A stretch of 64,000 nucleotides of DNA from Pseudooctadecabacter jejudonensis. Its GTDB lineage: Bacteria; Pseudomonadota; Alphaproteobacteria; Rhodobacterales; Rhodobacteraceae. A program made the translations under genes and the position numbers. The stretch lies in the NCBI RefSeq assembly GCF_900172275.1, contig NZ_FWFT01000002.1:496001-560000 (forward strand), in the 5' to 3' direction. The notes beneath the pieces are model-generated. The model worked only from the letters and a program-made list of their open reading frames with translations. It made no database searches and was not told the origin of the DNA. This document shows, piece after piece, positions 6,980-11,520 of this stretch (positions are counted from its first letter, which is position 1; each line of letters begins with the position of its first letter).

Positions 6980-7213
6980 TCATGGGTGGAAAATCATTGG
7001 TGTAATGATGCCCGCCTGGGACCACGCGGTTTGCACCGGGTCTTTCTCAGGCAGACGGAAATTGCGCAGTGCGAACAACACATAGGTGAACAGTGCCAGC
7101 GGCAGGCAGGCAAAGAAGATCACCACGAAATAGGCGCCGTACTCGCGTTTCTCTGCATTGGTATTTCGGCTCTGTTTCGCCTCAATCGGCGTGTCGGTTG
7201 TCAAATCAGTCAT
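6980..7213 (-). CDS. pufQ: PufQ, bacteriochlorophyll synthesis/cytochrome-associated small protein
   Basis: A 77-residue protein with one membrane helix (about residues 27-48) and the family's C-terminal signature: W, then AG.ITP.IF.P (here [15 protein letters not shown]). PufQ is required for normal bacteriochlorophyll levels in Rhodobacter; its mechanism is not settled. The start ATG at 7213 overlaps the bchZ stop by 8 bases and is preceded by GGAGG in the bchZ 3' end. It links the bch and puf parts of the superoperon. Confidence 0.9.
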
Positions 7214-8675
7214 CGCGTGGACCTCCTGTAGCAGGTTGCAACTTTCGAACCGTCTCAAGGACGACTCGCTCCGCTCCGGTCTCAAGGGCCGCCTTTTCGG
7301 CGGCATCCCTCAGCGTTTTTGCGGCAGAAATTCTTGTAAGGATGGGATGGGTCGCCACGATCTCATCAAGCGCGCGCGCTGCGTCGTCATCCCAAGGGAA
7401 ATCACGACGCAGGTTCGTCGGCGTTGCGTCGGCGGCGTCCATGTCAGTACCAAGAGGCAAGATGTGGAACAGCGCGTCAAACAATCCATTGCAGACCTCT
7501 TGGACAACATATGTCGCCCCAGCATAGCCCATGAATGGTGTTCCTGTCGCCCGCCGTATGGCCGCACCCGGAAAACTGGCGGGAATGAACGCCGGTGAGG
7601 GCCCATGCCCCGCCTTCAATTCCGCCAAATACATCTTTTCGTTGATCGACCCAAAGACCACCAACGGGCGTTTCTGCCCCATCAAGGCACGCACTTCGTC
7701 ATTGTTCGTTTTGGCCCCTGCGGTCCGTGCCACCGCAAACCCGCACGGCAGCCCCAGATCATCCTCAAGGAATTTGCGCAGGCCTCGCGCGTAGGTTTCG
7801 TTCGCGACAACGGCGAAACTGGCCGTGGCAAAGAAATCCTGCGTCACGCTGCGCCACAAGTCCCAAACCGGCTTGATGGTGGAATGCTTTTCGCGCTCGA
7901 TAAACGGCTCAGGGTCCAGCCCCAACAAATCACCCAACTTACGCAGGAACTTGGTTGTGCTGTCCAACCCGATGGGGGCCTGCAGATAGGGCTTGTTCAA
8001 AACCTCACACAGACCGCGCCCAAATTCGCGGTACATGCAGACATTCACATCCGCATTCACCAGATTGCGCATCTCCGCGACATGGCTGCCCAGTGGCATG
8101 ACCATATTCACCTCGGCGCCAATCCCTTCGACCAAGCGGCGGATCTCGGCCAGATCGGACGGCATGTTGAACGTGCCATACATTGGCCCAAGGATATTCA
8201 CGCGCGGCTTCGCACCCTCTTCGCGCTTCGCCTCTTTCGGCATCCGGCCTTTGGTCATCCCGAATTCGGTAAAGACCCAGGTCATGGCACGATCGGCGGC
8301 TTCCCATTGGTCCTCATCAATCGTCCGAGGGAGGAACCGCTGAATATTAGTACCCATGGGCGTTACACCGCCGCCGATCATCTCTGCAATGGATCCGGTC
8401 ACCACCACCGCCGGAAGCGCGGGGTCCAACGTGCCCCAGGCGCGCTTCATCGCGCCCTCGGTCCCGTCTCGGCCCAGCTCTTCTTCGCCCAGTCCGGTCA
8501 CCACAATCGGCAACTCGTGGGGCGGAAGCGCATCGGTGTAATGCAACACGGACGTCACGGGCAGGTTCTCACAGCCGACCGGCCCGTCGATCACGCACTG
8601 CAGGCCCTTCACGGCGCAGAACGCATAAACCGCACCCCAGTAGCCACCGGCCCGATCATGATCCTGGATCAGCAT
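7206..8675 (-). CDS. bchZ: Chlorophyllide a reductase subunit Z
   Basis: One of the two catalytic subunits (with BchY) of chlorophyllide a oxidoreductase. It belongs to the nitrogenase-like family that reduces ring B on the way to bacteriochlorophyll a. The protein opens [19 protein letters not shown] and keeps the cluster-binding [14 protein letters not shown] and [12 protein letters not shown] segments. ATG at 8675 gives 489 residues and matches the family start. The frame stays open 21 codons upstream to an ATG at 8738, but that stretch is an 11-bp tandem repeat. The Shine-Dalgarno is weak (GGCGG). It overlaps pufQ by 8 bases. Confidence 0.97.
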
Positions 8676-8700
8676 GTGACACCGCCAATCTGGCGCGCCT

Positions 8701-8741
8701 GCCATACGCCAGCCATACGCCAGCCATACGCAAACCATACC
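8701..8741. repeat. 11-bp tandem repeat array between bchY and bchZ
   Basis: Three 11-bp units (GCCATACGCCA, GCCATACGCCA, GCCATACGCAA) and a terminal partial unit ACCATACC fill about half of the 91-bp bchY-bchZ spacer. The same unit, same number of copies and same terminal CCATACC are found at 47930-47970, so this is a dispersed repeat and not chance. On the minus strand the array is open in frame with bchZ. Function unknown. Confidence 0.9.
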
Positions 8742-8766
8742 GGCATTTTGGGATCAAAATATGCCA

Positions 8767-10341
8767 CTAGATCATCTCCGCCGCTTTGGCGGCCTTGGCG
8801 GCCCGTTCCAGTTTTTTAGCGTTGAGAGCGCGGAATTCGGGCCGCAGATTGGGCGCCCCTTCCCAGACACCGGCGGTGTCCTGATGGCCGACACCCTCAA
8901 AGAATTCACGCATGGAATGCATCCGGTCGCGGTTGCCCATCGCGGCGTTCACGACCTCTTGCAAAGACCCTGCCCCCGCTGGCCCCATCAAGGGTCGCGC
9001 AGAAATCAGGTTGGTGAAGTAAAGGCTTGGAATGCCAAGCTCTTTGCCCTTTTGCACGACGGGTGTGGTGCCGATCGCAAGGTCGGGTTTGACCCCTTCC
9101 ATCGCGGCGCAATCGTCTTCCAGAGAGGCCCGGAATTTCACCGTCACACCGCGCGCTTTCAACCACGCCTCATCCGCCGCATTCCACGGCGTCTTTGGAC
9201 ACGCCGTGCCCACATAAGGCACATCCGCGCCGCTTTCGATCAGCAGCCGCGCCACCAACAGCTCGCTGCCTTCATAACCACTTAACGTGATGGTGCCATT
9301 AATACGGGATCCCGCCAGAGCGCCCTCAATCGCCGGCAGAAACGCATTTTGCGACGCCGCAATCTGATCGGCGCTCACACCATGGGCCTCCCCGATGGCG
9401 CGCAGCCACTCGGCAGTTCCGTCGCGCCCAACGGGGGCAGACCCCACCACAGGCCGACCGGCGGCCTGAAATTCGCGGACGCTTGCCGTGTAGAACGGAT
9501 GGATCGCGGCCACGACCGAACTGTCCAGCGCGGCGTAAAGCTCTCGCCATTCACGGCAAGGCACAACAGGACCGGCGGCCAAACCCATCGGGGCCAGCAT
9601 GGCGCCGATCATCATCGGATCGGCGGGGAACATTTCCCCCAACATGGCAACGGTCGGGCGGTCCGATTTACCAGAGGCAGGCGCCTGAACTGGCCCGGCC
9701 TCAACCTCGGCCCGTGCGTAATTCAGCATCGCGCCGGCCAACACGTCCTTGGCCTCAGCATGGGTCGGAATGCCAAATCCTGGCACATCAATGCCCACAA
9801 TCCGCACGCCGTTGATCTCGCTTGGCAACAGGCGAAGTGGCACACCGGAGGCCGTCGGCACACACAGATTCGTCACCACAATCGCGTCGTAAAGATCAGG
9901 GTCGGCAAGGTCATGCACGCTTTCGCGGATGTCCTCAAACAGCTTACCCGTCACGAGCGTTTCGGAGTTGAACGGCACATACCCAACAGACCGTCGCGCC
10001 CCGTAAAAATGCGACACAAACGTCAGCCCATACACGCAACAGGCGGACCCAGACAGCACCGTCGCCGTGCGTCGCATGCGCAGGCCAACTCGTAAGCTGC
10101 CAAAAGCGGGACACATGGATTGCGGTTTGTCATGGGGCCCTTGCGGGTAATCTTTGGCGTATTGTTCCAAGATCTCCGAAGACCCGGCCAGCTTGGCCGC
10201 CTCTTCCATCTCCGATCCGGAATGACAGCCCAGCGTTTCGGGTGCATCTGCGGGACGATCCGCGGGCAAAGCCTCGGCCTGAATGACCTGAACATCACCG
10301 GCATCGTCATATTCGACGCGATATGTGTCTTTGTCGCTCAT
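8767..10341 (-). CDS. bchY: Chlorophyllide a reductase subunit Y
   Basis: Second catalytic subunit of chlorophyllide a oxidoreductase (nitrogenase NifD/BchN-like). The 524-residue product has cysteine-bearing segments for the shared iron-sulphur cluster (SMCPAFGSLRVGLRM, GSACCVYGLTFVSHFYGARRS cut here to its first part, and VTNLCVPTASGVPL). It acts as a complex with BchZ and the BchX reductase. The ATG at 10341 overlaps the stop of the small upstream ORF (ATGA), so its translation is probably coupled to that ORF. Confidence 0.97.
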   Translation of the reverse strand: MSDKDTYRVEYDDAGDVQVIQAEALPADRPADAPETLGCHSGSEMEEAAKLAGSSEILEQYAKDYPQGPHDKPQSMCPAFGSLRVGLRMRRTATVLSGSACCVYGLTFVSHFYGARRSVGYVPFNSETLVTGKLFEDIRESVHDLADPDLYDAIVVTNLCVPTASGVPLRLLPSEINGVRIVGIDVPGFGIPTHAEAKDVLAGAMLNYARAEVEAGPVQAPASGKSDRPTVAMLGEMFPADPMMIGAMLAPMGLAAGPVVPCREWRELYAALDSSVVAAIHPFYTASVREFQAAGRPVVGSAPVGRDGTAEWLRAIGEAHGVSADQIAASQNAFLPAIEGALAGSRINGTITLSGYEGSELLVARLLIESGADVPYVGTACPKTPWNAADEAWLKARGVTVKFRASLEDDCAAMEGVKPDLAIGTTPVVQKGKELGIPSLYFTNLISARPLMGPAGAGSLQEVVNAAMGNRDRMHSMREFFEGVGHQDTAGVWEGAPNLRPEFRALNAKKLERAAKAAKAAEMI

Positions 10342-10532
10342 TGGGTGGGCTGTGTTTCTGGGGCGACCACCCGTGTCGACGCAAGGGCCGCACGCGCCAC
10401 GGAAAGAACACGGTATGCCTCTCCCATCATCTCGAGAGATTGCGCACGCCTTAACGCCGAAGCCCGCAAGGCATGTTCGGAATACACCAATGATGATATT
10501 GAAATCATAACCAGAGGATCACGCATCGTCAT
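10338..10532 (-). CDS. Small uncharacterised ORF between bchX and bchY
   Basis: A 64-codon frame occupies the whole bchX-bchY space. It starts 14 bases inside the end of bchX and ends in an ATGA overlap with the bchY start. Its ATG has the best Shine-Dalgarno seen in the cluster, GGAGGTGATC six bases upstream, a near-perfect match to the 16S rRNA tail; an alternative ATG is at 10526. The product is Arg/Ala-rich and likely helical (ALRASALRRAQSLEMMGEAY), without a signal peptide, membrane helix or cysteine. I do not recognise it. It could be a real coupled peptide or a spacer whose translation merely carries ribosomes to bchY. Confidence 0.55.
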   Translation of the reverse strand: MTMRDPLVMISISSLVYSEHALRASALRRAQSLEMMGEAYRVLSVARAALASTRVVAPETQPTQ

Positions 10533-11520
10533 AGATCACCTCCAAGCTTTCTTTTGGCTTGGCATTCTTGCCGCGCATGTCGGCATCTGTGGCAGGTTGC
10601 AGCACCACACCTGCGCCAGTGTCGGACCCGTCAAACAACTCCAACAATTCATCCTGGCTCAGCGCGGTGGGCCGCATCGGCGGCGCTTCGGCCACGTTTT
10701 CACCAAGGGCTGCAAACAGGGCGCCCCACTGGCTTTCAGACGTGCCGACGATCTGATAGTTCGCAGACTTTTTGCGCAGGTCATCGTCCTGCGGGATCGA
10801 CGCCAGAACGGGAATATCCACGGCTTTGGCAAAGGCCTGTGCCTCACCCGATCCGTCGTCCTTGTTGATCACAAGGCCAGCCACGCCGACATTCCCGCCC
10901 AGCTTGCGGAAGTATTCGACAGCAGAACACACGTTGTTGGCCACATAGAGCGATTGCAGGTCATTGGACCCAACCAAGATCACCTTTTGCGCCATGTCGC
11001 GCGCGATGGGCAGGCCAAACCCGCCACAGACCACGTCGCCCAGAAAATCGAGAAGGACATAATCAAAGTCCCAATCGTGGAACCCCAACTTTTCCAACAG
11101 TTCGAACCCATGGATAATTCCGCGGCCACCACAACCGCGGCCGACCTCTGGCCCGCCAAGCTCCATCGCGAAAACACCACCGCGCTTGAAGCAGACGTCG
11201 CCAATGGCAACCTCTTCTCCGGCAAGCTTCTTCTTCGTCGATGTTTCAATGATCGTCGGGCACGCCTTGCCGCCAAACAGCAAGGACGTCGTGTCGGATT
11301 TCGGATCACAGCCGATCAGCAAAACGCGTTTGCCCTGTTCGGCCATCATATGGCTGAGGTTGGCAAGGGTGAAGGATTTGCCAATCCCACCTTTGCCATA
11401 AATCGCAATGATCTGGGTTTTCTTGGTGGCCTCTGTCGGGATGACATCGGCCAGATCCTCGTTCGCCTCATCGCGCAAACGCTGATCAAAATCTTTGAGG
11501 TTCGGGACTTCGTCCTTCAT
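10519..11520 (-). CDS. bchX: Chlorophyllide a reductase iron protein BchX
   Basis: NifH/BchL-like ATP-dependent reductase that passes electrons to BchYZ. It has the P-loop YGKGGIGKS near residue 45, the GCDPKSDTT switch segment, and cysteines in [20 protein letters not shown] and near VVCGGFGLP that should ligate the bridging 4Fe-4S cluster. ATG at 11520 gives 333 residues, the Rhodobacter length; an upstream in-frame ATG at 11535 is less likely. It overlaps the bchC stop by 4 bases (ATGA). Confidence 0.97.

Follow-up and report, generated by a model that had tools for sequence, protein, structure and literature searches.

The window, a stretch of 64,000 nucleotides of the Pseudooctadecabacter jejudonensis genome, carries bchX, bchY and bchZ on its minus strand, each gene being separated from the next by a short spacer that contains an open reading frame (Table 1). 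These genes encode the three subunits of chlorophyllide a reductase, an enzyme that commits cells to bacteriochlorophyll and whose subunits must be made together. The product of bchX is 85.8–95.5% identical, over 99–100% of its length, to annotated X subunits (best seven of 11 plasmid records). The present analysis concerns the ORF lying between bchX and bchY and its counterparts in related bacteria.

Table 1. Features of the chlorophyllide a reductase operon in the window.
Feature	Positions	Strand	Details
bchX, chlorophyllide reductase iron protein	10519..11520	-	similarity to annotated subunit X
Shine-Dalgarno GGAGGTGATC of the bridge ORF	10534..10543	-	within the final codons of bchX; anti-SD duplex energy -14.4 kcal/mol
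Putative bridge ORF, MTMRDPLV...PETQPTQ	10338..10532	-	64 codons, ATG start, TGA stop
ATGA, overlap of bridge ORF stop and bchY start	10338..10341	-	sequence
bchY	8767..10341	-	TIGR02015, E = 2.8e-224
Second bridge-like ORF	8669..8767	-	32 codons; GTG start on the bchY stop; end 7 nt within bchZ
bchZ	7206..8675	-	start MLIQDHD picked by inspection

The spacer between bchX and bchY measures 177 nt and is filled by a single ORF, as an earlier note on this DNA had described. Its ATG is located 14 nt within bchX, whose stop codon ends at 10519; the four-base ATGA overlap that the note had placed at this end must therefore be corrected to 14 nt. The ATGA claimed for the other end, where the stop codon overlaps the start of bchY, is present. 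The note had also reported a near-ideal Shine-Dalgarno (SD) sequence with a 6-base spacing, and GGAGG is indeed found at 10543–10539, 6 nt upstream of the ATG. No SD precedes the bchY ATG of the window (duplex -0.1 kcal/mol). A consensus scan returned a promoter-like match within the ORF (10532–10504, minus strand) and, on the plus strand, two terminator-like matches that overlap each other. The note had stated, for Rhodobacter clusters, that bchX and bchY are described as adjacent with no annotated gene in between. The table published for Dinoroseobacter shibae agrees with such adjacency (PMC6052148), and three other annotated plasmid regions list no gene there; in Tateyamaria omphalii, Roseobacter litoralis, Sulfitobacter sp. 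S190 and R. ponti, unnamed hypothetical proteins have been automatically annotated at the junction. A search of the open-access literature, with most subscription papers outside its reach, found no paper on an ORF at this position.

The distribution of such ORFs was followed in loci collected by BchY similarity. The named loci comprise the top 80 among 580 that were confirmed. Further loci originate from a sample of 394 family genomes, 161 of which encode a BchY above the cut-off; 30 loci and 118 stretches were taken, a few stretches close to contig ends or with a partial BchY being left out. Dropping 25 loci without bchX or bchY, mostly unrelated matches, reduced the 262 loci to 237; merging of duplicates then left 221, and finally 219 strictly unique ones. 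The set of 221, in which two duplicates are left, was used for start offsets, peptide types, the tree, GC, amphipathicity, SD strength and the counts of ATG codons at short spacers.

At the 219 unique Rhodobacteraceae junctions, the spacer is shorter than 20 nt in 87 cases, at least 60 nt long in 103 and of intermediate length in 29. A canonical ATG ORF occupies 91 of the 103 long spacers and ends on bchY with ATGA in 82 of these. It starts 14 nt (62 loci), 8 nt (25) or 11 nt (4) before the end of the bchX stop codon. Its frame is open in 88 of the 103 long spacers, the other two sense frames being open in 39 and 38, and the spacer length is divisible by 3 in 84. Shuffled spacers are expected to be open in 38.9 cases as against the 91 observed; as the loci were picked for having an ORF, the comparison between frames is the fairer one. 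The open frame across relatives is beyond chance. On the opposite strand, the frame sharing these triplets is open as well in 82 of 104 spacers, one duplicate being left in; open antisense frames are common in GC-rich coding DNA. Among the 12 unique long spacers without a canonical ORF, eight contain an ATG ORF at -14, -11 or -8 that fails the end rule, L152 has a 22-codon ORF that begins at the stop codon of bchX, and the remaining three (L186, L202 and L242) lack an ORF there.

Altogether, 105 of the 219 junctions were typed as lacking the ORF, which indicates that a bridge is unneeded where bchY adjoins bchX. Half of the ORF-less loci with spacers shorter than 20 nt (42/84) have the in-frame ATG of bchY itself at -14, -11 or -8, so that the ORF occupies what is elsewhere the start site of bchY. 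No ATG-started ORF of this kind was encountered at 25 junctions from other alphaproteobacterial families; two of them have ORFs at the same distances that begin with GTG or TTG and comprise 38 and 20 codons.

The encoded peptides were sorted into types by regular expressions with hand corrections, giving 31 loci with type A, 47 with type B, three with tandem pairs and 33, the window included, with peptides classified as 'other'. Type A is characterized by the motif ARPEQ[LI]xRLLxDI and a predicted helical hairpin (mean pLDDT 77), and type B by the start M[FL]DLDxLxxxDxAL; the overlap with bchX partly dictates the first two or three residues. In 18 close pairs, mostly of types A and B and hand-picked with each locus used once, third codon positions hold 249 of the 562 substitutions (p = 4e-8) and 12 of 14 alignment gaps are multiples of 3. 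The dN/dS ratio ranges from 0 to 0.72 among the 13 pairs, overlapping ones, listed at 70% identity or more. GC content by codon position reaches 73/48/78% in type A and 78/54/76% in type B, the figures for bchX being 70/44/78%. Types A and B are, judging by these substitution patterns, peptide families under amino-acid constraint. The 'other' group presents a coding-like GC profile as well (64/49/69%), and in three pairs 48 of 110 substitutions fall at third positions (p = 0.016); on both counts it still looks partly coding. Its proline and glycine content is 9%, within the 9–13% observed across bchX-bchY peptides, and its mean amphipathic signal (z = 0.70) stands at the lower end of their range (0.70–1.07); the corresponding values at the bchY-bchZ junction are 21% and 0.05.

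Profiles of both types were searched against 248 family genomes. Type A matched in 16 genomes, with 13 strong matches, 12 of them beside a listed bchY and one unplaced (G118), and three weak matches located away from the junction or in genomes for which no BchY was listed. For type B, 43 genomes gave matches; 24 matches have E < 1e-4, of which 22 lie beside bchY and two are unplaced (G147 and G166), and 23 are weaker, two of these being at the junction. For both profiles the matches at the junction arise partly by construction, the members having been drawn from the searched genomes, and the informative part is that strong matches are lacking elsewhere. A Pfam scan of the junction-peptide sets A1, A2 and A3 (29, 35 and 18 members; E up to 0.5) yielded scattered weak matches only: PUF was the most frequent (five members at most, best E 0.026) and the lowest E value, 0.00023, linked one A3 member to DUF294_C. 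Against solved structures, the A1 and A2 profiles reached 0.03 and 0.022 at best, and phmmer detected no solved relative of BchY at E ≤ 1e-10. Types A and B seem to represent peptide families not characterised so far and linked to a single enzyme operon.

Several features are restricted to subsets of these peptides. The dipeptide Cys-Pro, which forms the core of heme regulatory motifs, is present in 15 of the 21 type B peptides that reach 40 residues (L015, L038, L052, L088, L188, L195, L210, L215, L220, L231, L236, L254, L261, L180 and L241), where shuffles predict 2.5, and is absent from the 26 type A and 25 other peptides of that length. It is mostly found close to the C-terminus, L241 carrying it far from that end. 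Some type A peptides (L050, L057, L196, L191, L201, L229 and L219) begin with a cysteine-rich MCxxC... sequence resembling a small metal site. Two small ORFs may also follow each other in one spacer, the first of another kind and the second of type B or A, as observed in L067 (from the same genome as L234), L026 and L219.

The evolutionary history of the trait was traced on a FastTree phylogeny of short BchX-BchY stretches, computed without support values. Presence or absence of the ORF requires at least 52 changes, where shuffled labels require 74 on average and 63 at minimum; with four states (A, B, other and none) the tree requires 64 changes, compared to a shuffled mean of 102 and minimum of 94. 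The two nearest neighbours of the window on this tree bear a type A ORF. On such a tree the ORF is seen to track descent, yet it would often have been gained, lost or replaced, and this frequent turnover argues against an indispensable peptide.

The peptide encoded in the window itself has no recognizable relative in the collections searched. Neither Pfam nor NCBIfam contains a family matching it at E ≤ 10, no homologue was found in 60 other genomes (best match E = 0.02), and across 19 genomes of the genus the spacer DNA matched, beyond its own full-length copy, short fragments only (E ≥ 0.03). Among the four genus genomes with a full BchY, three carry an ORF, of 64, 67 and 70 codons and all different in sequence, and one carries none. 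The check advocated in the earlier note, a conserved frame in relatives, thus gave a divided answer: the frame is kept and the peptide sequence of the window is not. The codon log-odds of the ORF amounts to -0.18 per codon and is not above that of open shuffles (p = 0.30), whereas every sampled equal-length stretch of bchX, bchY, bchZ and bchC scores at least 0.057, on a codon table that flatters these four genes for having been trained on them. GC by codon position is 62/53/55%. The peptide contains neither the type A motif nor the type B start in its extended form, M[FL]DLDxLxxxDxALxxL, and the type A and type B profiles match it unconvincingly (at Z = 32, E = 0.37 for type A and 2.3 for type B). 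A further block, type C (RxS...S...R.L), is common to Roseobacter and Tateyamaria peptides; the window gives a leave-one-out p of 0.029 for it, in another register. The closest likeness is to a Tateyamaria junction peptide, with p = 0.0026, which becomes 0.20 over 77 comparisons and so fails correction. These comparisons establish no homology to types A, B or C. AlphaFold2, run on the single sequence, predicts one helix spanning residues 6–51 (mean pLDDT 90, pTM 0.56), which for a single-sequence prediction is weak evidence.

The bchY-bchZ junction offers a comparison within the same operon. In 78 named loci, the gap between these genes falls into one of two size classes, -7 to 1 nt and 58 to 193 nt. 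By the same rule as above, a bridging ATG ORF is found in 36 of the 43 gaps of at least 60 nt; the gap length equals 1 modulo 3 in 42 of them and the bridging frame is likewise open in 42, the other two frames being open in 26 and 18. This frame displays a flat GC profile (62/61/62%), and of the 427 substitutions counted in 15 pairs 125 affect third positions (p = 0.97). The alignments of these pairs contain 28 single gaps, of which only 7 have a length divisible by 3; misalignment may partly account for this. A frame can thus be kept with neither codon bias nor third-position excess, so that its mere preservation cannot be taken to mean that the peptide is functional. In the window, the gap (8669–8767) contains short tandem GTATGGCTGGC repeats. 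A GC-rich, repeat-like core recurs in these gaps (e.g. L034, L036, L038, L061, L068, L070, L107 and L109); on the coding strand it consists of an inverted GGGGGC..GCCCCC followed by a CCCCCGGAGTATTT-like sequence and often by AAGATGAAG. All 11 matches to a loose version of the core in 582 kb of named loci fall in the bchY-bchZ region, and the core is present in five of the 119 bchX-bchY spacers of at least 40 nt (L145, L152, L216, L227 and L242). Neither the full pattern nor the loose core occurs in the window, where a short core pattern has two matches with two mismatches for 0.94 expected.

The strength of the SD ahead of bchY was compared between classes of loci, a strong SD being defined as a duplex of -6 kcal/mol or better. 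Strong SDs are found in 36% of 25 loci of the 'other' group, 58% of type B and 88% of type A loci, and in 66% of the 76 loci where bchY follows directly. Over the 82 ORF loci the median is -6.5, versus -6.9 for directly following bchY (p = 0.49), and the SDs of ORF loci are much stronger than random bchX stretches (-3.6). A missing bchY SD characterizes the window and some of the 'other' loci, not the whole family.

We conclude that the window ORF is probably a bridge for termination-reinitiation, delivering ribosomes to bchY. Ribosomes would load at the strong SD within the 3'-terminal part of bchX, initiate at the ATG that precedes the end of its stop codon by 14 nt and translate 64 codons; having reached the TGA, they would restart on the overlapping bchY ATG, itself devoid of SD, and the ATGA overlap would keep bchY coupled over 177 nt. 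What favours this reading in the window is the combination of a peptide without homologue, shuffle-like codons, a bchY without SD and a sister bridge on which no peptide constraint is apparent. The suggestion of the earlier note that the ORF only carries ribosomes to bchY is, for this locus, the preferred one. Ribosomes would then presumably use the ORF while the peptide itself would do little in this genome. A bridge ORF would be one way of keeping coupling across a spacer of this length.

The earlier note had also envisaged an assembly or stoichiometry peptide. Stated more broadly, the ORF might provide the chlorophyllide reductase operon with a small helical protein that is functional in assembly, stability or stoichiometry and whose homologues escape recognition through fast evolution; the coupling of bchY would be a by-product or an added role. 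We regard this as possible for the window, if unlikely. Types A and B occupy the same slot with conserved motifs, and their constraint implies that in general this slot is more than a bridge; the third-position excess and in-frame gaps of the close pairs, extending to three 'other' pairs, the dN/dS values of the listed pairs, the confidently predicted helix and the uncorrected Tateyamaria likeness all point in the same direction. The window peptide itself answers poorly to this description, given its shuffle-like codon use, its profile and type C matches and the divergence or absence of the ORF within the genus. A peptide role at the junction is nevertheless credible in relatives with types A or B.

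An extension of this idea, doubtful and offered as a speculation, would make the bchX-bchY junction a slot for fast-evolving small proteins tuning chlorophyllide a reductase during its synthesis. The ORF would couple BchY to BchX and at the same time free a helical peptide able to bind the enzyme, whether nascent or assembled. The Cys-Pro tail of type B might have heme or a precursor of chlorophyll as its ligand and act as a sensor of tetrapyrrole flux, and the window helix would be a diverged occupant of the slot. Heme regulatory motifs of other proteins, which serve in heme binding and sensing, provide the parallel for the type B Cys-Pro.

It is improbable that the frame was left open by drift, neither translated nor selected. 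A single open frame is in itself unsurprising (P(open) = 0.21 in dinucleotide shuffles of the window spacer) and the ORF has no codon bias, but members of the family share its frame, the offset of its start, its ATGA end and its length modulo 3, and a strong SD precedes its start. We give hardly any credit to the idea that the spacer contains no separate ORF and either extends bchY at its N-terminus or forms an RNA element: the bchY frame is open as far back as the bchX stop but contains no ATG, GTG or TTG within the spacer upstream of the ATGA start, while a fold no better than shuffles (z = +1.0) and the lack of any Rfam family matching the spacer rule out the RNA element.

If bridge ORFs keep coupling across spacers, this operon would show how coupling survives insertions. 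On that condition its two junctions would also provide a built-in contrast, one bridge being selected for its frame only and the other being a place where small peptides under constraint have emerged. What is of greater interest is found outside the window: two families whose strong matches are at the junction as far as they were searched and placed. Types A and B share with the window ORF the slot, the start positions and the ATGA end; the conserved motifs are theirs alone.

Among known small genes of photosynthesis clusters, the D. shibae table lists a 'Ferrochelatase regulator PufQ' directly after bchZ (PMC6052148). PufQ resembles the window ORF as a gene for a small protein (< 100 residues) of the same cluster and is named there for tetrapyrrole metabolism; it differs by its place in the cluster. 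Short ORFs that only deliver ribosomes have been discussed, the mycobacterial MIRU elements being presented as a possible case (PMC12548453). Like the window ORF, these have a short frame with a proposed role in passing ribosomes to the next gene. MIRUs are interspersed repeats, however (PMC12548453), whereas the genome contains the window spacer in one full copy, without the multi-copy character of MIRUs. The GC-rich core recalls MIRU-type elements, and the bchY-bchZ gaps in which it recurs come nearer to that case.

Another close parallel is found in the gene pairs described by Huber and colleagues. Coupling was reported as strict in 13 of 14 tested cases of ATGA or TGATG pairs (PMC6728339), a distance of about 20 nt was said to almost abolish it and short overlaps were described as enriched among the subunits of complexes (PMC10666635). 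The window resembles these systems in its co-directed genes, its ATGA overlap and the encoding of subunits of one enzyme (Huber et al. 2019, 2023; PMC6728339, PMC10666635). Unlike in those pairs, the partner to which bchY would be coupled is not a subunit gene: it is a 64-codon ORF bridging a spacer that would otherwise be too long.
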